From positions 1 through 20,882 of IMG/VR virus record IMGVR_UViG_3300009163_000215: a DNA stretch of 20,882 bases. One strand, 5' to 3'. This stretch comes from a virus. Under the pieces are notes generated by a model. The model made no database searches, was not told the origin of the DNA, and was given only the letters and a program-made list of their open reading frames with translations. Below are positions 2,812-20,477 of the stretch, piece by piece; positions within the stretch are counted from its first letter, which is position 1; each line of letters opens with the position of its first letter. The translations under genes were made by a program, and so were the position numbers.

Positions 2812-3367
2812 AAGCCCCGCCAAGCCTTCAAAAGCCAAGACTGAGGTGAAGGGTGCTATGACGCCTGCAAAGCCCGCTAAAGCCTCAAAACCAACACCAA
2901 GAAGAGTATTCGACCAAAAGGTAGCAGACCTCATATGCATGATGCTCAGTGAGGGGATGAGTCTACGCCAGATACTGAAGGCGGATACGACTGGAGCGTT
3001 ACCTGCGCAGTCGACGGTTTACGAGTGGTTGCTTCGCCACCCTGCCTTCGCGGAGCAATACGCACGCGCACGGGAGGAACAAGCCGATACCAATGCCGAT
3101 GAAATCCTAGAGATTGCCGACGAGATGCCCCCTGAGTACACCGATGAGAAGGGTCGCACCAGTTTGGACTTGACCTACATCCAGTGGCAGAAGAATCGCA
3201 TAGAGGCGCGTAAGTGGACAGCCGCCAAGCTGAGACCAAAGAAGTATGGCGACCGTATGGCTGTAGAGGGTGTAGAGGGTGGAGCACCTATTGCCACTGA
3301 GGACGCATCTGCTGACAAGTTCCTTGAGATCATTCGCAACATGGAAATGAGCAAGCGTGCTGGTTGA
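2783..3367 (+). CDS. terS: Terminase small subunit
   Basis: TerS recognises the phage genome end and delivers DNA to the large terminase. This 194-residue protein has a Lys/Pro/Ala-rich flexible N-terminus (residues 1-40). A helix-turn-helix region follows at about 42-90 ('DQKVADLICMMLSEGMSLRQ', then 'STVYEWLLRHPAFAEQYARA'), typical of phage small terminases. After it come a helical oligomerisation region ('YIQWQKNRIEARKWTAAKL') and the motif 'PKKYGDR', which I know from TerS proteins of this type. The ribosome site CAGGGGA (2767-2773) supports the ATG at 2783. Its 3' end overlaps terL by 11 bases, and that pairing makes the call firm. Confidence 0.88.
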   Translation: MPETVKKGSKSPAKPSKAKTEVKGAMTPAKPAKASKPTPRRVFDQKVADLICMMLSEGMSLRQILKADTTGALPAQSTVYEWLLRHPAFAEQYARAREEQADTNADEILEIADEMPPEYTDEKGRTSLDLTYIQWQKNRIEARKWTAAKLRPKKYGDRMAVEGVEGGAPIATEDASADKFLEIIRNMEMSKRAG

Positions 3368-4763
3368 AATACTAGAAGACCCAGAGGTTAAGGCGGAGTT
3401 CAACGCCTACCCTTTGCACGACCGTATTGCAAAGATTGCACACTCCGAATGGGTAAAGAGCGCACACAAGTACCAGATACCTCCGCCGCTTAAGATCGAC
3501 TACACCGTGTGGATGATGCTGGCAGGGCGTGGAGCAGGCAAGACGCGCTCCGCCGCTGAAGCGCTGTGGTGGTGGTGCTGGCTGGTACCTAACAGCCGTG
3601 GGCTGGTGTTGGCTCCTACGAGTTCTGACGTAAAATTCACCTGCTTTGAAGGGCAATCAGGCTTGCTCTCGGTGATCCCCAAAGAGTTGATCGTTGACTA
3701 CAACAAACAAGACCACCAAATCAAGTTGGTCAACGGTTCAAGCATTCGCGGTATCAGTGCAGACTCATACGAGCGCTTGCGCGGCCCTCAGTTCCACTTC
3801 GCATGGTGCGACGAGTTAGCCGCCTTCCAATACATTCAAGAGGCGTGGGACATGATGATGTTCGGTCTACGCCTTGGTGACCAACCACGGGTGATTGTGA
3901 CCACCACGCCTAAGCCTAAAGACCTGATACTCGATCTGATAGGCAGGGAGGGTGACGACGTGATCATCGACCGCGCCAGCACCTATGAGAACAAGGCTAA
4001 CCTCGCAGAGAGTTTCAGCAAGCAGTTAGAGACCTACCGTGGTTCAAAACTTTATGATCAGGAAGTGCTCGGATTAGTGGTCGACCTCGAAGACGGTAAG
4101 GTGGTCACAAGGGATATGTTCCAGATGTATCCCGCTGGGAAACCATTCCCTAAGTTTGAGTACATCCTACAGTCCTATGATTGTGCGTACACGGACAAGT
4201 CCTACAACGACCCAACAGCGTTCACGACATGGGGTGTGTTCAAGCCGATGGACGGGCCAATGTCCGTGATGTTGATCGACTGCTGGGCAGAGCACCTCAC
4301 CTTTCCTAAGCTGAAGGATCGCGCTATGGATGAGTGGCGAGTCTCTTACGGTGAGGGTAAGGATGCCAAGCGCCCCGACCTAATCCTAGTCGAAGAGAAG
4401 GCGGCGGGTCTGTCTCTCATTCAGGAACTACAGAAAGCGCATTTGATTGTCAGGGGGTATAACCCCGGTCGTGCCGACAAGATGCAACGCCTCCAAATCA
4501 CCGCCGCTATCTTTGCCACCAAGAGGGTATGGCTCCCTGAGTCTGAGGTGCATAAGGGTTACGTCAAAGACTGGGTGGAGGGGTTCCTGTCTCAGATATG
4601 CGCATTCCCTGACAGCACGCACGACGACTACGTCGACTCAGCAACTCAGGCTATGAGGTGGCTGAAGGATGGTGGTTGGCTCGACATCGATCCTGAGCCA
4701 CTGTATGATGACGACGACTACTTTGATGCCCAACCTGCGCGGGTCAACCCATATGCTGTCTAA
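3357..4763 (+). CDS. terL: Terminase large subunit (ATPase/nuclease)
   Basis: This is the motor that pumps DNA into the prohead and cuts it. The 468-residue protein has the Walker A motif AGRGAGKT (residues 56-63) and a Walker B-type strand 'FHFAWCDE' with D152 and catalytic E153. The coupling motif TTTP is at 182-185. The C-terminal RNase H-like nuclease has candidate metal ligands D275 ('LQSYDCAYTD'), E346 ('LILVEEKAAG') and D423/D424/D427 ('HDDYVDSATQA'). Length is normal for the family. The start is a GTG at 3357 that overlaps terS, the usual coupled arrangement; it has only a weak Shine-Dalgarno. All key residues are present, so it should be active. Confidence 0.96.
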   Translation: MLVEILEDPEVKAEFNAYPLHDRIAKIAHSEWVKSAHKYQIPPPLKIDYTVWMMLAGRGAGKTRSAAEALWWWCWLVPNSRGLVLAPTSSDVKFTCFEGQSGLLSVIPKELIVDYNKQDHQIKLVNGSSIRGISADSYERLRGPQFHFAWCDELAAFQYIQEAWDMMMFGLRLGDQPRVIVTTTPKPKDLILDLIGREGDDVIIDRASTYENKANLAESFSKQLETYRGSKLYDQEVLGLVVDLEDGKVVTRDMFQMYPAGKPFPKFEYILQSYDCAYTDKSYNDPTAFTTWGVFKPMDGPMSVMLIDCWAEHLTFPKLKDRAMDEWRVSYGEGKDAKRPDLILVEEKAAGLSLIQELQKAHLIVRGYNPGRADKMQRLQITAAIFATKRVWLPESEVHKGYVKDWVEGFLSQICAFPDSTHDDYVDSATQAMRWLKDGGWLDIDPEPLYDDDDYFDAQPARVNPYAV

Positions 4764-4765
4764 CC

Positions 4766-7700
4766 ATGCCTGACATTTCTAAACTTGCTAAAGGTCTGAC
4801 TGCCATCGCAAAAGGCGCGAAGGAGGAAATCCCATTTTCTCGTGGTGTAAAGACGCTATCAAGGGCTGAGAGCGACGAGAACCTTCGCAAGATGCTGGAG
4901 TCAAGCAAGATCAAGGAAAGACTGTTTCACGCAACGCCAGAGGACATCAAGTTCTTTAAGCCCGGCGGACTTAATCCCAAAATGAGTGGTGAAGCAATTT
5001 GGTTATCACCTGATCCAGCCAAAACACCAGCCGCACATAACATCGGTTACTACGACAATCCTCGGCAAGGTGTGAACATCATGCCTGTTCATGTGCAAGC
5101 AAAGAATCCCATGATTTTGGATGACGTGGATATGCTCAAGTGGGCGCAACAGGTATATGGCGAAGGTAGCAGAGAGTTTCCACAGTTAATGCCAAAGAAA
5201 TGGCGTGAAGAAGTTATGAAAGATTACGACAGCATTGTGTTGGCTGATCCGTATAAACGCGGTGATCCGCACGAGGTCATCATGTTTGAACCTGAAAAGA
5301 TTAAGTCAGCCACTGGCAACCGTGGAACGTACAACACCGACACGGCAGACATTACAAAGCGCAAAGGCGGTGCTATCCGTAAGGCTCGTGGCGGTCTTGC
5401 TCGAATGGCTGGCGGTGGTCAACCATCCAAAGTATTGAGTGGCAACATCATGGCTGGTGCTAGTTGGAACAGTATCAATCCAACACTGGCGGACAGGCTA
5501 ACTGAAGCTACTGGGATGCCAACGTATAACGCCGCTGTTGGCGCTACGACAAGCGCAGATACCTACAAGCAGTTGATAGATTTCATTGAGGCTGGTGGTT
5601 CATTTGAAGAGGGCGCTAACGTATTTTTGCAGGCAGGTGGCGCTGACTTTTTAAAAGGTGTGTCGAGAAAAGATACTGAAGAAAACCTAGACATAATTCT
5701 TACTGAACTTGAAAAGAGAGGCGTCAATGTTGTCTTGACTGGATCACCAGATGCGTCGTCTTACGAACAGGTTATCTCAAACAACTTTAATCCTGCATCA
5801 GACCAAATTTATAACAATGTTGTTGCCAAGCATTCCAATGTGGTGTTGGTTGATTCAATGGGTGAAATACTGCAAGACAAATCGTTATTGTCAGATTCAA
5901 TACACCCCAACGAGCAGGGCTGGGAGGTCTATAACGACTCTGTGCTTGGTGCTCTCAGTCAGCTAAAAAAGCGTGAAGAGCAAGAAGTCCAAAAAGAAGA
6001 GCCTGTAGACATTCCTCAAGAGATTGAGAAGATTACGCAGACAAGCACCCCAGAAGAGCGTTACACAAAAAACACTGAGGCTGAGCAACCTGTAGACATC
6101 CCTGAAGAGATTGAGCGCATCACCAACAATTCTCAAGAGCAGTACACACCAGATTTTCAGTCTGAATACGCATTAGAAAATATTCCTCAGATCAATACAG
6201 AGATGCCTGTGCAAACGCCCCAGACAGGCTACCAAGCGCCGCAAACCTATATGCCTATACAAGAGGTGCAGGAAGCCGAATCAGTGCCGTATGAGCCTCA
6301 AGAGATTGCGTCAAATCCAGAGCAACAGCCAAGAGCCGTTGAAACAAGGAGCGGCCCAGACTACAGCCGCGCATATGGTGCGTTAGGTGGTGAAGAAGTT
6401 GTAAACAACCTGTACAAACAATTCTTAGGGATGGGGTTGGATGAAGACACCATTGGCTCAGTCTTTTCCAAATACTATTCACCCGATGCACAAGAGGCTA
6501 AGAAGGGTGGCGCTATCCGTATGCAAGTCGGTGGTCTGGGTACCGTTGCCAAACTTGCCGCCGCTGAAAAGGTAGCCCCAGCCGCTAAGGTTGCTAGAGG
6601 GTTCACCCCAAGGTTGCTTGAGTCGACTACCAGCAAGATGTTAGATGACATTTTGGCAAACAATCCTAAGTTGACACCAGAGGCGGCATTTAAAAAAGCA
6701 AAGGAACAAGCGGAGCGTAAGTTGACGTGGGAGAGGGAAACAAAGCCCGATCTAGTTAAGCAGTACGGCCCGTTAGCCCGAGCCTCTTACGAAAAGACAA
6801 AAGTCAACAAGATGCAGAACACCGACGAGGCTGTTCAAAAACGTATCCAAAAAGCTAACGAGTTCCTTGATCAACCAACCGAACCGTGGACACCACCTAA
6901 GCCAGAGTTGCAGGCATTTGATCGTTCATCGATCAAAGACGCAATCGAGGGGTTTCCAAGCATAGAGCAGACGGCATTTCCCCGTGACATCCCAACCCGC
7001 GCCAGCACTTCTCATGTTGAGGGTTTGTACACCGATCCAGTCAATCGTGAGTTAATTAAGAAACAAATTACTCGTGGTTTACCGTTGGGTGGTGAGACCT
7101 TTTACGGTTCGCTGTACCCCATTAAACAGGCGGTGCTTGAAGCTGGTATGCCAGCAGAGAAGTTTGACAAGTGGGTTCATTCATTAGCGCCAGCATCCGC
7201 AAGAAACTCTATCATCAACGAAACCGCTGTTGGTCAGTTTTTGCGAGACATGAACGCTCGTGGTATTCCATTGACTGAGGAAAATGTTGCCATTGAAATG
7301 GCTAAGTACAAGCAGAAGTTTGGCGTAGCGCTACCCCTTATGCCTGTGCATCGTGAAGGCGTGGCTAGTGTTTTAGAGGGCGGACAAGACTTGCGTGAGA
7401 TGAGCAAAGCAAACATTCCGACTAACTACAAGATTCCTACCTACGGCGCTCAAAAAACAGGCGACTTTGGCAAGTCCGTAGTGCTTGACGTGCATGAGGC
7501 GGCGGGGCAAACACAGGGTAGTCGCTACCATCCTTACTTCAAAGAGCAAGGTGGGTTTGGTAACACTGAGTACAACGCTGGTGAGCAGGGAATGATGGGG
7601 ATTGCTGAGGAGTTGGGGATACCCGGCGGCATGGCGCAGGCTGGTCGTTGGTTTGGTGGTGGCGAGTTGACTGGTCTCAAGTCACCGCGAGGCGACGCGC

Positions 7701-9388
7701 TTGACATCCTTGAGCGTCAGGTAGCTTACACCCTCAAGCAACAAGGCAAACAACCTAACCCTACAATGATTCGCAATGAGATTCTCAACCAGATTAAAAC
7801 AGGAGAAGGTCAACTTTTACCTTGGTACAAGAGTGAAGGTATTCCAGATGTGCGTCAAACTGGATTACAACGCAAAGACGGTGGATCGGTTGAGGCTCCT
7901 CCTTTTCACGACTTCGACCAGATTATGAAACGCAAAGACGGAGGCACCGTGAACACAACATTTGAGCAACGCCTGAAGAGCGCAATAGAGAAACACATGG
8001 CTGGTGGCGGTGAGGTGCATATGGAAGAGGGCGGATCATACCCACCCAAAAAAGATGTACCTGAGATGAGTCCTCAAAAGTATTTAGAACTGCTTGCACT
8101 GCAACCTAAGTTAGGTTTGCAATCAGAAAAACAAATCAAAGCATTTTTAGAAGAGCAGTACAAAAAAGAAAAAGAAGAAGGCTTTGGAACCCCTCAAGCA
8201 CGCATGGATAGGGCTATCAAAACAGTAACACCGTTTATTGGTGCTGGCGCTGACATCGGAAATTTTGCGGCTAACATTCCCCACTACTTGACTGAGGGTG
8301 TTTCCGCCGTTGGTAACTACGCCATGAGCAAAGTCCCATCAATGAGCAAGCCAGCATCAGTGCTTGACACCGAAGGTAAGGGTGATCGAGTGGCTAAGTA
8401 CCCACTTGAATCACTCCCAGAAGTTGAACCGTTCTATGGCAGTGCGGCAATGCAACGTGATGCAAAAAACGCTGGGTTAATGGGTGACTCTGAATCGCCA
8501 GTGTATGACACTGCTATGGCGTTTCTAGCCCCCTATGGTGCGGCTAAGGCACCCAAGGCAATTAAAGGCGGTTTAAATGCAACAAGAAGTGGTTTAGAAA
8601 ATACAGCCGCCGCAGTGCGCAATCCATTTCAATCAGCCACGCTTACGATGGAGCAAGTAGCCCCAGACTTAGGTCAATTAGGCGGTGATAAATTTAAAGA
8701 ATTGCTTACACGCAGATTAACTATGAACGAAGGTGCGCCTGTAAGCATGAGCATTATGGGTGGTCGCAAAACAGACAAGACACTTGGACAAGGTTTGTAT
8801 GAAAACAAGGCTGGCGACTTTGAAACAAACCCTATGGTAGGTGTCAATATTCCACGCGCTGGTAACTTATCAACTAACAAAAAATTGCTTGCAGACATTG
8901 GTACAGCGGGGCAAGAGTTAGGTCAGGAGATGGTTGCCGCGCATAAATTTACACCGTTGTTATTTGGCAACGCAAAAGATGCAACCGCTATGATGGTTCG
9001 CGGTGCTGACGGTGCGCCTTTAACTCAAAAGCAAATCATAGAATTAGCGGGTGAGTTGCCCAATATGATTGCCTCGCACAGCCCTAAAGCTGGCGGTATG
9101 TTTGTAGCCCCATTTAAAGGTGATGCTTTAGATTATGCAAAGGTGCAAGAAGCGGCATCAAAAATACTTGGTAAAAACGCTCAAATTAAATTTGGTAAAG
9201 CAGACCCCGATAAAGACATTATGTATCGTGGCGATTATAAAGATATGGGTGCAAGAGCGCCTTCAGCCGAGTCCATAGCAATGCGAGACCGCTTGAAGAA
9301 GGCGGAGGCGCGGATTGTTCGACCGCCTTCCAAATCACAGCCCGTGTCAAATACTCAGCCTCCTTCTCTAACCAGTACGCTTCGTTAA
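4766..9388 (+). CDS. Giant polyvalent protein with ART-like and SGNH-like domains, 1540 aa
   Basis: This multidomain protein lies between terL and the portal gene. Residues about 50-190 resemble a polyvalent-protein ADP-ribosyltransferase domain: H55 in 'LFHAT', W79 in 'AIWLSPDP', and a final strand 'HEVIMFEPEKIKS' with E170/E175. Residues about 222-400 resemble an SGNH/GDSL hydrolase: S233 in 'GASW', 'GGADF' at 291-295, and D377/H380 in 'DSIHP'. A Gln/Pro/Glu linker (400-525) carries two PVDIP repeats. Residues 592-1035 and 1092-1540 are unrecognised modules, the second possibly with a membrane-active stretch near 1155-1190. K/G-G motifs lie at 198-218, 579-592, 1036-1042, 1056-1062 and 1079-1091, between modules. 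There is no clear ribosome site, so translation probably depends on terL. Known polyvalent proteins are thought to be injected with phage DNA; that role is inferred here. Confidence 0.8.
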   Translation: MPDISKLAKGLTAIAKGAKEEIPFSRGVKTLSRAESDENLRKMLESSKIKERLFHATPEDIKFFKPGGLNPKMSGEAIWLSPDPAKTPAAHNIGYYDNPRQGVNIMPVHVQAKNPMILDDVDMLKWAQQVYGEGSREFPQLMPKKWREEVMKDYDSIVLADPYKRGDPHEVIMFEPEKIKSATGNRGTYNTDTADITKRKGGAIRKARGGLARMAGGGQPSKVLSGNIMAGASWNSINPTLADRLTEATGMPTYNAAVGATTSADTYKQLIDFIEAGGSFEEGANVFLQAGGADFLKGVSRKDTEENLDIILTELEKRGVNVVLTGSPDASSYEQVISNNFNPASDQIYNNVVAKHSNVVLVDSMGEILQDKSLLSDSIHPNEQGWEVYNDSVLGALSQLKKREEQEVQKEEPVDIPQEIEKITQTSTPEERYTKNTEAEQPVDIPEEIERITNNSQEQYTPDFQSEYALENIPQINTEMPVQTPQTGYQAPQTYMPIQEVQEAESVPYEPQEIASNPEQQPRAVETRSGPDYSRAYGALGGEEVVNNLYKQFLGMGLDEDTIGSVFSKYYSPDAQEAKKGGAIRMQVGGLGTVAKLAAAEKVAPAAKVARGFTPRLLESTTSKMLDDILANNPKLTPEAAFKKAKEQAERKLTWERETKPDLVKQYGPLARASYEKTKVNKMQNTDEAVQKRIQKANEFLDQPTEPWTPPKPELQAFDRSSIKDAIEGFPSIEQTAFPRDIPTRASTSHVEGLYTDPVNRELIKKQITRGLPLGGETFYGSLYPIKQAVLEAGMPAEKFDKWVHSLAPASARNSIINETAVGQFLRDMNARGIPLTEENVAIEMAKYKQKFGVALPLMPVHREGVASVLEGGQDLREMSKANIPTNYKIPTYGAQKTGDFGKSVVLDVHEAAGQTQGSRYHPYFKEQGGFGNTEYNAGEQGMMGIAEELGIPGGMAQAGRWFGGGELTGLKSPRGDALDILERQVAYTLKQQGKQPNPTMIRNEILNQIKTGEGQLLPWYKSEGIPDVRQTGLQRKDGGSVEAPPFHDFDQIMKRKDGGTVNTTFEQRLKSAIEKHMAGGGEVHMEEGGSYPPKKDVPEMSPQKYLELLALQPKLGLQSEKQIKAFLEEQYKKEKEEGFGTPQARMDRAIKTVTPFIGAGADIGNFAANIPHYLTEGVSAVGNYAMSKVPSMSKPASVLDTEGKGDRVAKYPLESLPEVEPFYGSAAMQRDAKNAGLMGDSESPVYDTAMAFLAPYGAAKAPKAIKGGLNATRSGLENTAAAVRNPFQSATLTMEQVAPDLGQLGGDKFKELLTRRLTMNEGAPVSMSIMGGRKTDKTLGQGLYENKAGDFETNPMVGVNIPRAGNLSTNKKLLADIGTAGQELGQEMVAAHKFTPLLFGNAKDATAMMVRGADGAPLTQKQIIELAGELPNMIASHSPKAGGMFVAPFKGDALDYAKVQEAASKILGKNAQIKFGKADPDKDIMYRGDYKDMGARAPSAESIAMRDRLKKAEARIVRPPSKSQPVSNTQPPSLTSTLR
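6002..6124 (+). repeat. Duplicated PVDIP linker repeat
   Basis: Within the 1540-residue protein, PVDIPQEIEKIT (residues 413-424, bases 6002-6037) and PVDIPEEIERIT (442-453, bases 6089-6124) are near-identical copies 87 bases apart. They lie in the acidic linker after the SGNH-like domain. The DNA is also similar, which points to a local duplication. Confidence 0.7.
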
Positions 9389-9571: not shown

Positions 9572-12049
9572 ATGGCAAAACAAATGCCCATCGACCAAGA
9601 ATTTGATCGTTTTATTGACGGACTCAAAAACAACAAAGACGGTAGTGCTGACGTAGAGGTAGAGGACGACATCAGCGACGTTGAAGAACTAGAGGACGGT
9701 TCCGCCATTGTGCGTATGGGTGAAGACAAAGAGTCACCAGAAGACCCTGAGTTCTACGAAAACCTTGCCGAAGAGGTTATGAATCTGTACGACCTTGATA
9801 AGGTTGGGATGCGTTACCTTGACCTGATTGAGAAGGACAAGGAAGCACGCGAACAGCGCGACAAGCAGTATGAAGAGGGACTCAAGCGGACGGGTTTAGG
9901 CAACGATTCGCCGGGCGGTGCTCAGTTCATGGGTGCCAGCAAGGTCGTGCACCCCGTGATGGCTGAGGCGTGCGTAGACTTTGCCGCTCGTGCTATCAAG
10001 GAGTTGTTCCCGCCAGACGGGCCTGTCCGCACAAAGATTATGGGCGAGGCTACTGAGGAAAAGACAGAACGCGCAGAACGCAAACGTGATTGGACTAATT
10101 GGCAGTTGACTGAGCAGATTCAAGAGTACCGCGACGAGCAGGAGCAGTTGCTGACCCAGCTACCGTTAGGTGGTTCCCAGTACATGAAGCTGTGGTACGA
10201 CGAGCAGAAGAAGCGCCCCTGCGCTGAGTTTGTTCCTATTGACAACGTAATGCTACCGTATGCCGCTGTGAACTTCTACACCGCCCAGCGCGTGACTGAG
10301 ATGCAAGACATCACAGGGATGGAGTTTAAAAGGCGTATTGATTCAGGACTGTACCGCGATATTGACTTTGTTCGCGCTACGTCAGAACCTGAGCAAACAG
10401 CTTCAGAGAAGGCTAACGACAAGATTGAGGGTAGGTCTTACGGTGACAACGAAGACGGTCTGCGCAAGGTTTACCACATCTACACATTCCTTGAGGTCGA
10501 GGACGACCCAATTACCAAGGGCGAGTTGGCTCCCTACATCCTAATGATTGATGAACTTGAGAGCAAAGTTTTAGGGTTGTACCGTAATTGGGAAGAGGGC
10601 GATGAAACAATGACCAAGTTGGATTGGCTCATTGAGTTTAAATTCATCCCTTGGCGCGGTGCATACGCTATTGGGCTACCCCAACTCATCGGAGGTCTCA
10701 CAGCCGCCTTGACGGGTTCTCTACGCGCCTTGTTGGACACTGCGCACATCAACAACTCGGCGACGATGCTGAAGTTAAAAGGTGCAAAGGTTTCTGGGCA
10801 ATCACAGAACATTGAAGTGACTCAGGTGACGGAAATTGAGGCAGGGCCGGGCGTCAACGACATCCGCCAAATCGCTATGCCCATGCCGTTCAATGCACCC
10901 TCTCCCGTTCTATTCCAATTGCTTGGTTGGTTAACAACAGCCGCCAAAGGCGTGGTCACCACCGCTGAGGAAAAGATTGGTGATGTAACAGCTAACACCC
11001 CAGTGGGAACTACGCAGGCTTTGATCGAGCAAGGTGCGGCGGTGTTTTCCGCTATTCACGCACGTTTGCATGAGAGCCAGCGCAGAGTGTTGGGTGTGCT
11101 TGGTCGCATCAACCGCTGGTACTTGGACGATATGCGCAGGGGTGACGACGTTGCTGAGTTACCTATCAGCCGTGAAGACTTTGCAAAGAACAGCGACATT
11201 GTTCCAGTATCTGATCCGCACATCTTTTCTGAGACACAGCGCATGGCACAGATGCAAGCGGTGCTTCAAATGTCGGCGGCAAACCCGGGGATGTTTGACC
11301 AAAAAGCCGTGTTGAGCCGAATGCTCAAGCAGTTGAAGGTGCCTGACATTCAAGAGTTGTTACCTAACGCTACCAAACCGATGGAGCACAACGCCGCTGA
11401 TGAGAACGCCGCAATGTCTTTAGGCAAGTCTTCGTTTGCATATCCTAGCCAAGATCACTTAGCGCACATTCAAGTCCACCTAACTTTTGGCCTTGATCCA
11501 ATGCTGGGTTCCAACAACTTGATTGCACCAAAGTTTATCCCGCAGGCGTTGGAGCACATCAAGCAACACATGATGCTGTGGTACACAAGCCAAATGAGTG
11601 CTTATGTGACTGCTGGTACTGACCTCAAGCTAGGCCCTTACGAGGACAGCAAACTTGCACCAGAGATTGACAAAGCTATGGCTATTGCGTCTGATCACGT
11701 CAAGTTGGATACCGCTGAGGTTTTCAAAGGCGTGCTACCAGCGCTTCAGCAGTTAGGTCAGGTCATGCAACAGTTCAAACCACCAGCACCTCCTATGGAA
11801 GGCGAAGCACAAGCTGTTTTGCAGGCTTCTATGGCAGAGACACAACGACGCGCCGCACGCGACCAAGCAGATATGGCGCAGAAGGCAAAAGAATTGCAAG
11901 CGAAGATCGCTATGAACGCCGAAGACAACCTAACGAAAGAACGGATGATGACGGCAGACCTCACGGTCGAGGAGATCAAACTGCAAAGGGAGCAGGAAGA
12001 GACAGCACTCAAACTGCAAAATGTTACACAACGCAACTTAGGAGATTGA
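9572..12049 (+). CDS. Portal protein
   Basis: The portal is the dodecameric ring at the capsid vertex through which DNA passes. This 825-residue protein has the usual position after the terminase and before the scaffold and capsid genes. It has an acidic N-terminus (1-60) with two DGSA motifs (residues 23-26 and 42-45). A portal-like core includes 'ASKVVHPVMAEACVDFAARA', 'LLTQLPLGGSQYMKLWYDE' and the clip/crown region 'TANTPVGTTQALIEQGAAV'. The C-terminal ~90 residues are a charged coiled coil ('ETQRRAARDQADMAQKAKEL'). The size and long C-terminal helix suggest a P22-like portal with a barrel, seen in podoviruses. The ribosome site CAGGAA (9558-9563) supports the ATG at 9572. Confidence 0.88.
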   Translation: MAKQMPIDQEFDRFIDGLKNNKDGSADVEVEDDISDVEELEDGSAIVRMGEDKESPEDPEFYENLAEEVMNLYDLDKVGMRYLDLIEKDKEAREQRDKQYEEGLKRTGLGNDSPGGAQFMGASKVVHPVMAEACVDFAARAIKELFPPDGPVRTKIMGEATEEKTERAERKRDWTNWQLTEQIQEYRDEQEQLLTQLPLGGSQYMKLWYDEQKKRPCAEFVPIDNVMLPYAAVNFYTAQRVTEMQDITGMEFKRRIDSGLYRDIDFVRATSEPEQTASEKANDKIEGRSYGDNEDGLRKVYHIYTFLEVEDDPITKGELAPYILMIDELESKVLGLYRNWEEGDETMTKLDWLIEFKFIPWRGAYAIGLPQLIGGLTAALTGSLRALLDTAHINNSATMLKLKGAKVSGQSQNIEVTQVTEIEAGPGVNDIRQIAMPMPFNAPSPVLFQLLGWLTTAAKGVVTTAEEKIGDVTANTPVGTTQALIEQGAAVFSAIHARLHESQRRVLGVLGRINRWYLDDMRRGDDVAELPISREDFAKNSDIVPVSDPHIFSETQRMAQMQAVLQMSAANPGMFDQKAVLSRMLKQLKVPDIQELLPNATKPMEHNAADENAAMSLGKSSFAYPSQDHLAHIQVHLTFGLDPMLGSNNLIAPKFIPQALEHIKQHMMLWYTSQMSAYVTAGTDLKLGPYEDSKLAPEIDKAMAIASDHVKLDTAEVFKGVLPALQQLGQVMQQFKPPAPPMEGEAQAVLQASMAETQRRAARDQADMAQKAKELQAKIAMNAEDNLTKERMMTADLTVEEIKLQREQEETALKLQNVTQRNLGD

Positions 12050-12230: not shown

Positions 12231-12415
12231 GGTACATATCCGACTTTATCGGTGCTGTAGAAGCGCGTAAAGCTGAGATTGCTAAGTCGGTTATTGCGGG
12301 AAACTGCATCAACTACGAGGCATATCAAAGGCTAGTCGGTACCAATGCGGGTCTTGAAGAAGCCCTTGACATCCTAAACAACCTTTTAAAGGAAGAAGAA
12401 GACGATGACAGATAG
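12227..12415 (+). CDS. Small helical protein, 62 aa
   Basis: It starts in an ATGA overlap with the preceding gene and ends with an 11-base overlap into the co-chaperonin gene. The product (MRYISDFIGAVEARKAEIAK...) is predicted all-helical: 'INYEAYQRLVGTNAGLEEAL' followed by 'DILNNLLKEEEDDDR'. Small helical proteins of this kind are common between phage portal and scaffold genes, but I cannot name the family. The double overlap makes translation very likely. Confidence 0.7.
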   Translation: MRYISDFIGAVEARKAEIAKSVIAGNCINYEAYQRLVGTNAGLEEALDILNNLLKEEEDDDR

Positions 12416-12827
12416 CACGGTAGCGGGTAATGCCGCTGATTTAGAGGACGCGTTTCCTCTTGTAGACCCCGGAGCACTGCCCCTTGGCGCACGAGTATTA
12501 GTTCAACTGCGAATCGCCAAGAAACGAATGACAGAATCGGGGATTATTTTGCCTGAAGAGACCCGCGACACCGAGAGGGCGCAAAACCCAGTCGGTAAAG
12601 TGGTGGCTATCGGCCCGTTAGCGTTCAAGAAGCGCGACACAATGGAGGCATGGCCTGAAGGCTCGTGGTGCGGTGTGGGTGATTACCTTCGCGTACCCAA
12701 ATGGACTGGCGACCGTTGGTTTGTTCCGCACAATAACGAGGAAAACGTCGAGTTTATGGTGCTGAATGACCACGAAGTGATCGCCAAAATCACTGGTAAC
12801 CCCCTTGAAGTGAAGGCATTCGTATGA
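12405..12827 (+). CDS. GroES-like co-chaperonin (Cpn10 fold)
   Basis: The product (140 aa) looks like a phage co-chaperonin that would cap GroEL, as T4 gp31 does, to help fold the capsid protein. It has the Cpn10 opening strand 'ARVLVQLRIAKK' at about 29-40. A mobile loop follows, with the GroEL-binding hydrophobic tripeptide I47-I48-L49 ('SGIILPEETRD'). Next come 'NPVGKVVAIGPLAF' (61-74), 'GDYLRVPKW' and the closing strand 'FMVLNDHEVIAKIT'. An N-terminal extension of ~28 residues and a longer central region ('KKRDTMEAWPEGSWCGV') distinguish it from bacterial GroES. No partner GroEL is present here, so the host GroEL would be used. The ribosome site AAAGGAAG (12388-12395) supports the start; the end overlaps the scaffold gene by ATGA. 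Confidence 0.85.
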   Translation: MTDSTVAGNAADLEDAFPLVDPGALPLGARVLVQLRIAKKRMTESGIILPEETRDTERAQNPVGKVVAIGPLAFKKRDTMEAWPEGSWCGVGDYLRVPKWTGDRWFVPHNNEENVEFMVLNDHEVIAKITGNPLEVKAFV

Positions 12828-15969: not shown

Positions 15970-16947
15970 ATGCCCCAGTTTTCAGATGATCTTTTTCTAG
16001 GCTCCGCCATTACCTATCAAGGTTCGGATGCTTATCCTGCTGTTGCGACCTTTACTGGTTCAATTTCTACCACTACATTAACTGTTACCGCAATGCTTTC
16101 TGGTGACAATATTACTGTTGGTATGTTTATTGACAGTTCAACGTCACTCACCAATGGCACCTACATTACCGCTTTTGGTACAGGTACAGGCGGTACAGGT
16201 ACTTACACGGTCAGTGCTTCACAAACTGTAGCAAGCGCCACCATCATTGGTTCTGGTAATGCTTTGTTGCAAAACCCATCCCCAATGAGCGTAGGTGTTG
16301 GCCCCTTGGGTCGACTCTATATTTGGGACGCTGTACCACAAGCAAAACTAACAACCAACATTGTTGCCGCCGCCATCACAACTGCTACCACGCTCACGCT
16401 TGCCGCAGGTGCTGGTGTTACATCAACAACCATAACTGGTGGTGGTACAGGTCTGCAACTTGACTGCCCTCGTGCTGTGTCTACAACCACAGGTGCTGGT
16501 TCTCCAACTTCTGTCAACATTACGGTTTCTGGTTACGACTACTACGGTCAAGCCATGAGCGAGGTAATTGCAACAGGAACAGTGGCATCAACAACCGTCA
16601 ATGGTAAAAAAGCCTTCTACCAGATTGCCAGTGTTACCGCTTCAGGCGGTAGCGTGGTAACTGTTGCGGTAGGTACAACCGACATCTTAGGTGCGCCACT
16701 GCGCATCACTGATCGAGGTTACGTCACCCGCGCTGGCTGGGACAATACCTTGGCTGAAGATGCTGGCACCATGACTGTTGCCGCTACCGCTACAGCAACT
16801 ACCACAACTGGAGATGTGCGCGGAACGTACACCCCTTCCTCGGCGGCAGATGGTATCAAGCGCCTTGTGATGGGAATAGCCCTGCCAGCGATTGCGGCAG
16901 GCCCGAATGCAACTCGTGTTGGCGCGTTTGGCGTCACACAAGCATAA
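15970..16947 (+). CDS. Beta-rich virion protein with mobile-looking module, 325 aa
   Basis: The start at 15970 has AAGGAG (15958-15963) 6 bases upstream; an in-frame TTG at 15943 is rejected. The protein is almost entirely Thr/Gly/Ala/Val-rich beta structure. Residues about 25-94 form a self-contained module with '[17 protein letters not shown]' and '[18 protein letters not shown]'. I recognise the latter pattern as one that recurs in unrelated phage structural proteins. It seems inserted between '[13 protein letters not shown]' and '[19 protein letters not shown]', which read as continuous surrounding protein. The rest has repeated beta segments and ends '[20 protein letters not shown]'. The location after the capsid gene suggests a head-surface or head-fibre protein; the exact role is unknown. 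Confidence 0.7.
16042..16251 (+). repeat. Mobile-looking beta module inside a virion gene
   Basis: The encoded residues (about 25-94) contain the Gly-Thr run '[12 protein letters not shown]' next to '[11 protein letters not shown]'. At DNA level the run is built from repeated GGTACA units (around 16177-16206). Modules of this sort are shared among phage tail and head proteins, which suggests recombinational shuffling. The boundaries are approximate. Confidence 0.5.
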
Positions 16948-16957
16948 GGAGAGCAAC

Positions 16958-18052
16958 ATGGGACAATTTAAACCAATGGTCAAAATGATGACCACAGAAC
17001 CCTCAGTAGAGTTAAAACTCGCTAAGGGTGGCTCAGTCAAGATGAAAAAAGGCGGTAGCACTACCAAAGCCAAGAAGATGGCTATGGGTGGTGGCGCTAT
17101 GGACATGATGTCAGGAACACCCGCTTTGGTGGGTCGTCCTGCTGTGAATGCTCCAGTGCGCACGCCGGGCAAGCCCTCCATGATGGCTCGTCGCAAGGCA
17201 ATGATGGCAAAGCCTGCAATGCCTATGGGTAACCCCTCTATGCCTGCGCCAATGAAAAAAGGTGGCAAAGCTGAAGGCGGCGACACTGCTCAAGACAAAG
17301 CTATGATCAAGAAAGCCTTTAAACAGCACGATATGCAAGAGCATAAAGGCGGCAAAGGCACTAACTTGAAGCTGAAAAAGGGTGGCAAGATGGCTACTGG
17401 CGGTGTAACGGACGGTCAAGGTGGTTACAAAACTGGTGGTGTTGTCCTTGGTAATGGCGGCGGTTACAAAACTGGCGGAGTTGCTTTAGGTAACGCGGGT
17501 GGCTACAAAATGGGGGGCAAATCCTCAAAAAAAGCCTACGCGACGGGGGGAACTGTTGATTCAGGCAAACCCGTCGCAATGCCCCAAGGTAACAAGAAAC
17601 CAAGCGCACCTGTAAGCATTGATCGTTTTTCTGGCACCTTTAAAAAGGGCGGCAAAGTAATGATGAATGGTGGTGGTACAACTTCTGGTCAAGGTGCGAT
17701 TACTGATAGTGAGCGCAAGACTGTTCAGGACTTGTCCAAAGGTGCTTACGATAAAACTGGAAAGTACAACCGTGAACTTGAGGATGCAATGAATCCTTTT
17801 AGTATGGTGAAAGAACTTGCTGGCAAGGCGCGTGATGCGTTTCTTGATAGGAAGCCTGCCCAGATAATTGATATGACAGGAAAAAAACCTGAAGATTTTC
17901 TTGACAGGAAGCCTGATAGGTCAATAGACATGAAGGGTAAAAAACCTGAAGATTTTCTTCAAAAATTGCGTGGACAGGGCGCTGTTACAGAAACCGAAAG
18001 GTCTGTGACAGTGTCCCCAGTAGGAAAAAGACGCGGCGGACGCGCTTGTTGA
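16958..18052 (+). CDS. Basic Gly/Lys/Met-rich repeat protein, 364 aa
   Basis: TAAGGAG (16946-16952) sets the start at 16958 and overlaps the upstream stop; longer in-frame starts are rejected. The N-terminal two thirds are Lys/Met/Gly-rich, with many KGG or KKGG motifs (residues 23-25, 31-33, 101-103, 130-132, 141-143). Three tandem units of GGYKTGGVxLGN lie at 155-187. The C-terminus has 'ELEDAMNPFSMVKELAGKAR', then two near-identical 19-residue units (297-334) beginning DRKP, and ends in a basic 'GKRRGGRAC'. Very high positive charge suggests binding to DNA or to an acidic surface inside the head. No enzyme motif is seen. Its placement between two terminators, downstream of the capsid gene, suggests a virion component. 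Confidence 0.7.
   Translation: MGQFKPMVKMMTTEPSVELKLAKGGSVKMKKGGSTTKAKKMAMGGGAMDMMSGTPALVGRPAVNAPVRTPGKPSMMARRKAMMAKPAMPMGNPSMPAPMKKGGKAEGGDTAQDKAMIKKAFKQHDMQEHKGGKGTNLKLKKGGKMATGGVTDGQGGYKTGGVVLGNGGGYKTGGVALGNAGGYKMGGKSSKKAYATGGTVDSGKPVAMPQGNKKPSAPVSIDRFSGTFKKGGKVMMNGGGTTSGQGAITDSERKTVQDLSKGAYDKTGKYNRELEDAMNPFSMVKELAGKARDAFLDRKPAQIIDMTGKKPEDFLDRKPDRSIDMKGKKPEDFLQKLRGQGAVTETERSVTVSPVGKRRGGRAC
17420..17518 (+). repeat. 39-base tandem repeat (2.5 copies)
   Basis: Units at 17420-17458, 17459-17497 and a partial at 17498-17518 encode GGYKTGGVVLGNG, GGYKTGGVALGNA and GGYKMGG. The unit is 13 codons, so copy-number changes keep the frame. Copies differ mostly at third codon positions, meaning the peptide is kept while the DNA drifts. 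Confidence 0.85.
17846..17959 (+). repeat. 57-base tandem repeat (2 copies)
   Basis: The units 17846-17902 and 17903-17959 encode DRKPAQIIDMTGKKPEDFL and DRKPDRSIDMKGKKPEDFL. The final 'AAAAACCTGAAGATTTTCTT' is identical in both, which suggests recent duplication. The unit is 19 codons and in frame. Confidence 0.9.
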
Positions 18053-18518: not shown

Positions 18519-19043
18519 ATGCCAAGCAAATCATCTTTCCAACACAATTTGATGGAAGCGGTCGCACATAACCCTGCGTTCGCCAAGAAGGTTGGTATTC
18601 CTCAAAAGGTCGGCAAAGATTTTGCTAAAGCTGATGAGGGAAAGAAACTTAAAGGAGGCGGCTTGTATGAAAATATCAATGCAAAACGTGAAAGAATCTC
18701 TGAAGGCTCTGGGGAGAAGATGCGTCGAGTGGGTAGCAAGGGTGCGCCAACGGCTAGTGACTTTAAAGAGTCAGCAAAAACCGCCAAATTAAAAGATGGT
18801 GGGGTTAGCCTTGCGGTAGGTCGTGGTGAAAAACTTTCGACAAAAGAAGGCGCAGGGCTTACGCAAAAAGGCAGAGACAAATACAATAGAGAGACAGGGT
18901 CAAACTTGAAGGCTCCACAGCCTCAAGGTGGCGCTCGTAAGGACTCATTTTGCGCTCGTATGAGCGGGGTGCAAGGGCCAATGAAAGACGAGAAGGGTAA
19001 TCCCACTCGTAAAGCGGCGGCACTTGCACGTTGGAAGTGTTGA
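18519..19043 (+). CDS. Two-domain basic phage protein (DUF6321-like C-terminus), 174 aa
   Basis: The product has an N-terminal helical unit (residues 5-42, 'FQHNLMEAVAHNPAFAKKVG'). A KLKGGG motif (43-48), a charged middle and a KLKDGG motif (90-95) follow. The C-terminal domain is 'LTQKGRDKYNRETGSNLKAP', then 'KDSFCARMSGVQGPMKDEKG' and a final 'RKAAALARWKC'. That C-terminal pattern matches what I remember as DUF6321, found in many phages and of unknown function. Its conserved Cys and basic residues could bind metal or nucleic acid, which is inference. The start at 18519 has only a weak ribosome site, so translation may be coupled to the gene two bases upstream. Confidence 0.72.
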   Translation: MPSKSSFQHNLMEAVAHNPAFAKKVGIPQKVGKDFAKADEGKKLKGGGLYENINAKRERISEGSGEKMRRVGSKGAPTASDFKESAKTAKLKDGGVSLAVGRGEKLSTKEGAGLTQKGRDKYNRETGSNLKAPQPQGGARKDSFCARMSGVQGPMKDEKGNPTRKAAALARWKC

Positions 19044-19044
19044 T

Positions 19045-20115
19045 ATGGCGTACTCTGAAACCTACGGACAAACGGTCAATGTGCAGACATTGATTGACCA
19101 CGGCGCTCGACGCTGTGGGAAGCTGGCTGAAGAGTTGACTTCTGAGCAAGTTCTCTCCGCTCGTCAATCGCTTGGGTTCTTGCTTTCTAACCTTATCAAT
19201 CGAGGCATCCAGTATTGGTGCATCAGCAAAGAGGTGATTGGACTTACCCCTAACAAGTATCAATACACCCTGCCTGACGGGGCTGTAGACACGCTTAATG
19301 TGCTATATCGCACTTTAAATCGTCCAGTAGGGGCGTATACCTCCTCTGCTGGCGGAACTGTTGCAAATCTTTACGATGGGGATGTTGACACTTACACCCA
19401 ACAGGCTTCGGCAAACGGGAGTTTTACGGTCAATTACGGCATAACAAACCCCATCTATGCAGGCTCTATTGGGTTCTTGCCCTACATCTCTGGTGGTGGG
19501 TCTGGAACGTGGAATATTACGCTCCAATACTCGACTGACGGGGTGACGTATTCCACCTTGCAAAACCTTGGGGCGGTTGCGGTTAAGGACAACACATGGG
19601 TGTGGACGGATATAGACCCCGGTCAGTCCGTCGCCTACTACCGCATTCTTGCCTCCTCTGGGACTACGCTTGCTCTTCGTGAGTGGTACATCGGTAACAA
19701 CAGCACCGAGGTGATGATGTCTCGCCTAAACCGTGACGACTACACTAACTTGCCTAACAAGAACTTTACTGCAAACCAGCCTTTTCAGTTTTGGTTTGAT
19801 CGCACTATTCCAAACCCAACGATTTATCTTTGGCCTACCCCTAGCAACGCCTTTGTGCAGATGACGGTGTGGTACTCCACCCAAGTCATGGATGTGGGCG
19901 CTTTGACTAACGAATTGCAGATTCCTCAGCGGTGGTACGAGGCGGTGGTGTTTATGCTGGCTCACCGTATGAGCCTTGAGTTGCCACAGGTTGCAATGGA
20001 TCGTGTTGGCTATCTTGAAAAGATGGCTGAAAAATATCTGTTTGAAGCGGAGCAGGAAGAGCGCGACAAGTCGCCAATCTACCTAGCCCCAAACATTAGC
20101 GTGTACACAGCATAA
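19045..20115 (+). CDS. Head-tail adaptor-like neck protein with discoidin-like insert
   Basis: This 356-residue protein looks like a podovirus adaptor (P22 gp4 / T7 gp11-like role) that bridges portal and tail. Helical N-terminal segments ('VNVQTLIDHGARRCGKLAEE', 'LSARQSLGFLLSNLINRGI') are followed by 'YQYTLPDGAVDTLNVLYRTL'. The flanking sequence resumes at 'MMSRLNRDDYTNLPNKN', 'YLWPTPSNAFVQMTVWY' and 'IPQRWYEAVVFMLAHRMS', ending in charged helices. Residues about 97-217 form an extra domain with 'NLYDGDVDTYTQQ', 'WNITLQYSTDGVTYSTL' and 'VAYYRILASSGTTLALREWY', which is a F5/8 type C (discoidin) pattern. GGAAG (19033-19037) supports the ATG at 19045, one base after the previous stop. Confidence 0.75.
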   Translation: MAYSETYGQTVNVQTLIDHGARRCGKLAEELTSEQVLSARQSLGFLLSNLINRGIQYWCISKEVIGLTPNKYQYTLPDGAVDTLNVLYRTLNRPVGAYTSSAGGTVANLYDGDVDTYTQQASANGSFTVNYGITNPIYAGSIGFLPYISGGGSGTWNITLQYSTDGVTYSTLQNLGAVAVKDNTWVWTDIDPGQSVAYYRILASSGTTLALREWYIGNNSTEVMMSRLNRDDYTNLPNKNFTANQPFQFWFDRTIPNPTIYLWPTPSNAFVQMTVWYSTQVMDVGALTNELQIPQRWYEAVVFMLAHRMSLELPQVAMDRVGYLEKMAEKYLFEAEQEERDKSPIYLAPNISVYTA

Positions 20116-20477
20116 TGCCAGTTTTTCTTGACACTCGTGGGTTGACATCGGTTGCCATCGCGGTTTGCGATAGGTGCAAGATGAAGGTGCCTTTTGTCAC
20201 ATTGGTGGCGGATGGGAACTCGCCGGGTCTCCGCGTCTGCGCTGAGCGTGGATGCAGGGATGTGCTTGATCCCTATCGACTTCCCGCTAGAAAGACTGAG
20301 CGTATTAACCTCAGATTTCCACGCCCTGATGTCAGCATTGCCGCAGGTGACAACTTCTTGATGACAGGTGGAACAAGTCAATTTCAAATTTCCACGGAGC
20401 AGAACACACAGACTCCCACAAGCACTGGAAATAAAGATACGATTGCTCCAAATCCTCCAGATAATACGAGTACATAA
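20115..20477 (+). CDS. Cys-rich small protein (zinc-ribbon-like), 120 aa
   Basis: It starts in a TAATG overlap with the adaptor gene. The N-terminal half has 'AVCDRCKMKVPFVTLVADGN' and 'GLRVCAERGCRDVLDPYRLP', giving two C-x-C-like pairs that fit a zinc ribbon. The next segment, 'ARKTERINLRFPRPDVSI', is of a kind I recall in a small protein placed after the adaptor in other phages. The C-terminal 40 residues are Asn/Thr/Gln-rich and disordered. It may stabilise the neck or tail. No catalytic motif is visible. Confidence 0.7.
   Translation: MPVFLDTRGLTSVAIAVCDRCKMKVPFVTLVADGNSPGLRVCAERGCRDVLDPYRLPARKTERINLRFPRPDVSIAAGDNFLMTGGTSQFQISTEQNTQTPTSTGNKDTIAPNPPDNTST

Follow-up and report, generated by a model that had tools for sequence, protein, structure and literature searches.

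In a freshwater phage, a single gene between those for the large terminase subunit and the portal encodes a giant mosaic protein, and the slot that it fills is a hypervariable cassette site: from phage to phage its modules are swapped, while the flanking head genes can be up to 100% identical. Many of the joints between modules carry a ten-residue motif, here called the tag, which we find in only three genes of a longer contig, one of them for a probable DNA-ejection protein. We propose that the slot protein is an effector carried in the virion and ejected into the host, with its modules addressed by the tag, and we hold the chances that this reading is right and that it is wrong to be about equal. 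The window is the whole stretch of DNA analysed, 20,882 nucleotides, and its features are listed in Table 1.

Table 1. Features of the slot gene and related genes in the window (nucleotide positions in the window; residues of the 1540-aa protein in brackets).
Feature	Position	Strand	Basis
Terminase large subunit, upstream border of the slot	3357..4763	+	
Polyvalent mosaic protein, 1540 aa	4766..9388	+	ORF, identical homologue in L001, purifying selection
ART-PolyVal domain (52-188); H55, W79, D155	4919..5329	+	Pfam PF18760, alignment
KGG-type linker from ART to SGNH-like domain (199-218, RKGGAIRKARGGLARMAGGG); degenerate form of the tag	5360..5419	+	Sequence
SGNH/GDSL-hydrolase-like domain (229-385); S233, D377, H380 kept, A293 in place of block-III Asn	5450..5920	+	
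Pro/Gln/Glu-rich spacer, presumably disordered (406-580)	5981..6505	+	Sequence
Linker tag 1, GGAIRMQVGG (581-590)	6506..6535	+	Motif search
Module M3 (600-1035), all-helical; K889/D908 invariant	6563..7870	+	Alignment, AlphaFold
LNK block (1036-1095), two KDGG motifs	7871..8050	+	Kept even where flanking modules differ
Linker tag 2, GGEVHMEEGG (1081-1090)	8006..8035	+	Motif search
CTDn region (1094-1269), Gly/Ala-rich, poorly conserved, precedes the C-terminal domain	8045..8572	+	
C-terminal domain (1288-1491); G1343, Y1345, E1353, Q1387, E1388 conserved	8627..9238	+	Model, alignment
Portal protein, downstream border of the slot	9572..12049	+	
Tag copy GGSVKMKKGG in KGG-rich protein 16892-18052	17027..17056	+	Motif search
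Second tag copy GGKVMMNGGG in the same protein	17648..17677	+	Motif search

The reading frame is a single ORF of 1540 codons that opens with an ATG immediately 3' of the terminase stop. Its very unusual length and mosaic make-up could in principle come from an assembly or sequencing error fusing separate genes, as the first-pass annotation had itself considered, and one relative contig has the frame split in two. However, an independently binned contig of 53.9 kb (L001) encodes a protein that is 100% identical over residues 1-1540. Further, the dN/dS against relatives is about 0.05-0.08 for M3, the C-terminal domain (CTD) and the ADP-ribosyltransferase (ART) domain and about 0.18 for the SGNH-like domain, indicating that the four modules tested are all maintained as protein under purifying selection. 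Dozens of relatives also have unbroken frames of 900-2550 residues. The identical copy and the low dN/dS together show that the frame is real, and a fusion artefact is hardly credible.

The protein unites an ART-PolyVal, a GDSL/SGNH-like and a SAM-lyase-like domain with M3 in one polypeptide, in a phage with portal-terminase packaging whose terminase and portal genes flank the gene. This bears out the initial description of a polyvalent protein with ART and SGNH-like domains at this place: both domains have Pfam matches and the flanking genes are confirmed. Two modules of about 440 residues had been left unrecognised, and a Pfam search of the protein indeed returns nothing for either. Among cultured phages the whole protein has a sole match, in Pseudomonas phage F116 and within the ART region; a tblastn search of cultured phages found neither M3, the CTD nor the KGG-rich protein, and M3 was not found in the bacterial genomes searched.

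The ART domain matches PF18760, the profile of the ART-PolyVal / Tox-ART-HYD2 clade, with 46.3 bits, against a curated cut-off of 31.2. An alignment of 31 related ART modules shows H55 in 30 of them and an aromatic residue at position 79 in all (F in 16, Y in 9 and W in 6, including this protein). The first-pass annotation had listed E170/E175 next to H55 and W79. The fold family and the latter two residues stand, but the glutamates do not: E170 is kept in just 12 of the 31 modules and E175 in 5, while D155 is kept in 30. D155 is therefore taken as the third active-site residue, and the predicted triad is H55-W79-D155. Except for Trp instead of Tyr, this matches the H-Y-D active site of polyvalent ARTs (PMC5512222).

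The SGNH-like domain scores 37.6 bits with Lipase_GDSL_2 (PF13472), where the curated cut-off is 32.9, and in the PDB it matches a carboxylesterase (7c23, E 1.3e-6). The three residues originally proposed are all present, S233 as the block I serine (in GAS, not GDS) and D377 and H380 as the Asp-x-x-His of block V. In block III, GGAD is found for GxND, with A293 at the position of the oxyanion Asn; among relatives L012 and L064 have GAND and L044 has a Val. Because the block-III Asn is replaced, hydrolase activity of this protein is doubtful, and the domain may be inactive.

For M3 the AlphaFold model (pLDDT 82, pTM 0.81) is helical throughout. The only notable enzyme match in the fold search is weak (prob 0.82, E 0.24), to the DNA glycosylase 3n0u, and the invariant K889 and D908 are 19 residues apart, compared with 18 in the HhH-GPD proteins extracted here. 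An hhalign comparison with these proteins was negative, so that the family stays a weak lead, and a DNA-glycosylase-like function, suggested by the model, appears rather unlikely. Nine remote M3 members match DUF7178 (PF23802), while the M3 studied here does not.

The CTD model, built from 37 sequences, has a pLDDT of 88 and a pTM of 0.83. Its best PDB matches in Foldseek are the Svi3-3 SAM lyase (6znb/6zm9, prob 0.99, E 4e-3), and the T3 SAMase (7ock) is matched with prob 0.91 and 0.87; the TM-scores of the structural match are modest, 0.29/0.47 over about 115 of 224 residues, i.e. with half of the domain aligned. In BFVD the CTD matches large phage proteins, two of them annotated as "large polyvalent protein associated domain". 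Svi3-3 binds SAM through Gly56, Tyr58, Glu69, Gln104 and Glu105 (PMC7877911). By order, spacing and a compatible secondary-structure setting, these residues correspond in the CTD to G1343 (37 of 37 sequences), Y/F1345 (35), E1353 (37), Q1387 (37) and E1388 (36). In T3-type SAMases G55, E68, Q94 and D95 are invariant, and the G-Y-E-Q-E signature is absent from three control families. A relationship to T3 SAMase detectable by sequence was rejected, as the profile comparison was negative; the mutual similarity of accepted SAMase members is itself barely detectable (PMC7877911). A C5 DNA methyltransferase of the same phage counts against a SAM lyase, since both enzymes would draw on SAM. On balance we consider SAM-lyase activity a serious possibility, a little short of an even chance, and the modelled CTD a candidate anti-restriction enzyme.

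To describe the slot we gathered relatives from IMG/VR with the whole protein, the tag pattern and alignments of M3 and the CTD. They comprise 130 distinct ORFs from uncultured phages, and the module names used below were coined here from sequence words. Terminase and portal are both on the contig for 89 of the 130 ORFs and just one of them for 39, where the contig usually ends first; in close relatives the slot gene begins a few nucleotides 3' of the terminase stop. The content of this fixed slot varies even among phages with identical or similar head genes. In L024 TerS and TerL are 100% identical and the cassettes are different, and L018 and L022, with 98% identity in the portal and 95% in TerL, have another architecture. 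Two relatives, L002 and L020, share the cassettes HEGRH-FHEM-YHPD at 98% DNA identity and then, from the tag onward, continue with M3 and MRAR, respectively.

In general, the N-terminal cassettes number from zero to four (ART, SGNH-like, HEGRH, MNFK, FHEM, YHPD, RWFT, FTED, PcfJ-like and others), and behind them come M3 or MRAR, the LNK block and, in most cases, the CTD. The proteins of a second clade, more distantly related, are longer, up to 2551 residues, and contain GNAT and other modules. The first-pass annotation could not name the domain order; this was right and understated the case, since the slot holds an array of cassettes whose make-up differs between phages and no order is fixed across relatives. 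M3 is found in 80 loci and MRAR in 36, never together. The same holds for the loci with a CTD, which were mostly fetched independently of M3 and MRAR: 26 have M3, 27 have MRAR and none has both. The two look like interchangeable cores; they were rejected as homologues, as hhalign detects no homology between them. In Caulobacter phage RW, whose portal is 49% identical, the slot is empty, which shows that the gene is accessory and its product not an essential part of the head.

L031:327-4412 and L037:9580-13605 contain a large cassette of about 500 residues with "SLRDPKGMSHATIEV...QIKGKQNAAP", which recurs in many slot proteins; a Pfam search of this cassette was without match, and it is here called PCFJ-like. 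L017:4371-7935 holds the same gene as L014, divided into two frames. A different KGG-type protein of 890 residues with a GP88 domain is found in the slot of the uncultured Manatee Spring phage MW202545 (L048:8636-11308). In Pelagibacter phage HTVC027P (L051:7615-11743) two long proteins with GGR[I/V]GY joints, to which no function is assigned, lie between terminase and portal. From these proteins, the slot may be far older than the present phage group.

Other genes around the slot were also noted. A gene for a GroES-like co-chaperonin (12405-12827) lies between the portal and a scaffold-like gene, and its conservation spans the group as well as Caulobacter phage RW, Roseobacter phage CRP-902 and Pelagibacter phage HTVC027P. 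The small protein encoded at 18519-19043 has a C-terminal DUF6321 domain with an RWKC end, while its N-terminal part matches virion structural PHROGs; relatives of it are present in 226 phage records that range from cyanophages to Pseudomonas phages. In the 53.9-kb relative (L300:11023-13512) a C5 cytosine DNA methyltransferase, found in 4 of 30 relatives, is clustered with an asparagine-synthase/QueC-like PP-loop enzyme and a small methyltransferase, possibly a DNA-modification cassette. A stand-alone gene at L300:14027-14806, some 1 kb upstream of where the window begins, encodes ArdC-N and a zincin-like metallopeptidase, a classic pair of polyvalent domains that here has a gene of its own (5 of 30 relatives).

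The tag has the consensus GG-[A/E]-[I/V]-[H/R/K]-M-[Q/A]-x-GG and the general form GGx[I/V]xMxxGG. Across the 91 copies, which come from 60 ORFs, A or E predominates at position 3 and H, R or K at position 5, with V or I at position 4; Met occupies position 6 in all 91, though the search pattern permitted Y and F. The strict form is absent from the other 70 of the 130 ORFs, including distant relatives that retain the slot. A wider pattern finds 109 stretches in IMG/VR, and 54 of the 58 matches examined in newly fetched contigs adjoin a terminase or portal of the group. Bacterial and archaeal genomes totalling 257 billion bases yield only nine stretches with the same pattern, all unrelated, which by estimate is about what chance would give.

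DNA homology between relatives ends within 15 nt of a tag at 51 of 216 breakpoints (23.6%), compared with 2.6% at random positions, and 76% of the breakpoints are away from strict tags. The tag could thus serve mainly as a DNA-level anchor for recombination in cassette swaps, the peptide being without a role. The clustering shows that module borders coincide with tags and not by what route they are exchanged, because BLAST extends through a conserved tag. Against an anchor, the peptide is conserved under many synonymous spellings (ten different ones for GGAIRMQVGG) and is also present in two proteins for which no shuffling is known. Further, an imperfect identity of 30 nt is a weak substrate for recombination. 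We consider such an anchor very unlikely.

The Gly-Gly joints separate modules, and they might also be cleavage sites, at which a polyprotein is cut into its effectors before packaging or after ejection. Processing of polyvalent proteins has been inferred by Iyer et al. 2017 (PMC5512222), and cleavage of this kind has been proposed for those with zincin-like metallopeptidases. The genome studied here does encode a protein of the ArdC-N/zincin type, and other clades carry some of the modules as separate genes. However, proteases of the S78, S14 and S49 families were not found in 9-10 near-complete relatives, and ArdC-N is present in just 5 of 30, too rare to fit a dedicated processing enzyme; a dedicated head-maturation protease for the joints was rejected on these grounds. 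A PF18818 profile search is given no weight, as its controls were not matched. The invariant Met, and a tag at the C-terminal end of the ejection-like protein described below, do not specially suggest a cut site. Cleavage at the joints thus appears unlikely.

The tag is also present in other proteins. In the complete 53.9-kb contig it occurs in three ORFs only, all of them in the virion-assembly block: the slot gene, the KGG-rich gene that comes after the capsid gene, and a gene for a 336-residue protein at 19128-20135 of that contig, beyond the window. The last has the tag at its C-terminal end and lies directly 3' of the gene for a 1071-residue protein with weak tape-measure-like matches. 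It has a weak match to PHROG 4287, "DNA ejection protein" (E 1.5e-4), and from sequence it is a probable DNA-ejection protein. In seven contigs of about 50-54 kb the strict motif is found only in orthologues of these three genes and, in G022, in the orthologue of the 1071-residue protein. The association with the ejection protein is strong and not absolute, since its orthologue has lost the tag in G004, G016 and G022. In Caulobacter phage RW this orthologue is untagged, and no tag was found elsewhere in the genome. Pelagibacter phage HTVC027P, of which 43 kb were scanned, has a variant, GGR[I/V]xY/F, in both slot proteins and in a protein of its distal structural region, and the GGR[I/V]xY form may have the same role there.

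That the slot protein and the ejection-like protein have the tag in common suggests a signal for virion loading or ejection. As it is kept at the protein level and common to the ejection-like and KGG-rich proteins, the tag is most likely a mark for loading or docking. We tentatively propose GG-x-[I/V]-x-M-x-x-GG as an address, by which the slot modules it brackets would be carried and injected and the arsenal could be swapped in one step; we hold this to be rather less likely than not. Virion incorporation of the slot protein is something we infer, and Caulobacter phage RW does without the gene. The protein might then act late within the producing cell, in superinfection exclusion or host shut-off, and not be in the virion. 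This we find decidedly unlikely, for the gene is within the head operon beside terminase and portal, the KGG-rich protein and a probable ejection protein also bear the tag, and packaging has been predicted for the phage polyvalent proteins already known (PMC5512222).

If the slot protein is indeed carried and ejected, the slot gene would be the effector-cassette site of a podovirus-like phage group. The polyvalent protein would be produced late, loaded into the virion and ejected alongside the DNA, and its modules would act on the new host at once. The ART, of H-W-D type, would modify host proteins; M3 would be a helical, possibly DNA-acting module; and the SAM-lyase-like domain would drain S-adenosylmethionine and thereby blunt restriction and methylation defences that depend on it. 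Modules would be traded between phages, often at joints that bear the tag. The tag would mark or dock proteins for the virion interior or the ejection machinery, so that new cassettes with a tag come pre-addressed. How non-structural proteins are selected for virion loading and injection is poorly understood, and a motif of ten residues limited to three to four genes makes the question directly testable in a laboratory phage. The slot would also be a natural inventory of modules injected against the host and its defences, many without known function, and a candidate pre-made SAM lyase would act ahead of any phage gene expression.

That phages have mosaic polyvalent proteins with ARTs is already known (PMC5512222). 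In the literature searched, which covered few subscription papers, we found SGNH-like and SAM-lyase-like modules nowhere described in a polyvalent context, and likewise no account of a joint-specific peptide that an ejection protein also carries; the words "linker" and "SGNH" were not found in the text of PMC5512222. Like the phage polyvalent proteins with ART-PolyVal (PF18760) of Iyer et al. 2017, the slot proteins are multidomain, with diverse enzymes, an ART close to the H-Y-D type and strong mosaicism, and belong to phages with terminase and portal. In contrast to these, they occupy a single fixed slot, have zero to four exchangeable N-terminal cassettes, include SGNH-like and SAM-lyase-like modules, and are joined by decapeptides common to a probable ejection protein.

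With phage SAM lyases (T3 SAMase; Svi3-3, 6znb/6zm9) the CTD has in common the G-x-[Y/F]...E...Q-[E/D] signature and, to judge by Foldseek, possibly a ferredoxin-like fold. However, known SAMases are small, free proteins expressed early, whereas the CTD is a module of about 200 residues in a giant late-operon protein, has a second alpha/beta half and is without sequence-profile similarity to them. Delivery of an ART together with the DNA, as proposed here, follows the logic of T4 Alt and other head-packaged ARTs. These belong to a different ART clade (R-S-E, as opposed to H-Y/W-D here) and are not part of a cassette protein. In combining recurrent delivery features with exchangeable effector modules, the slot proteins further resemble polymorphic toxins (PMC3482391). 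They are not members of that class, being phage-borne and having neither a visible immunity gene nor a trafficking domain for a secretion system. Compared with all these systems, the tag and the cassette logic appear to be new.
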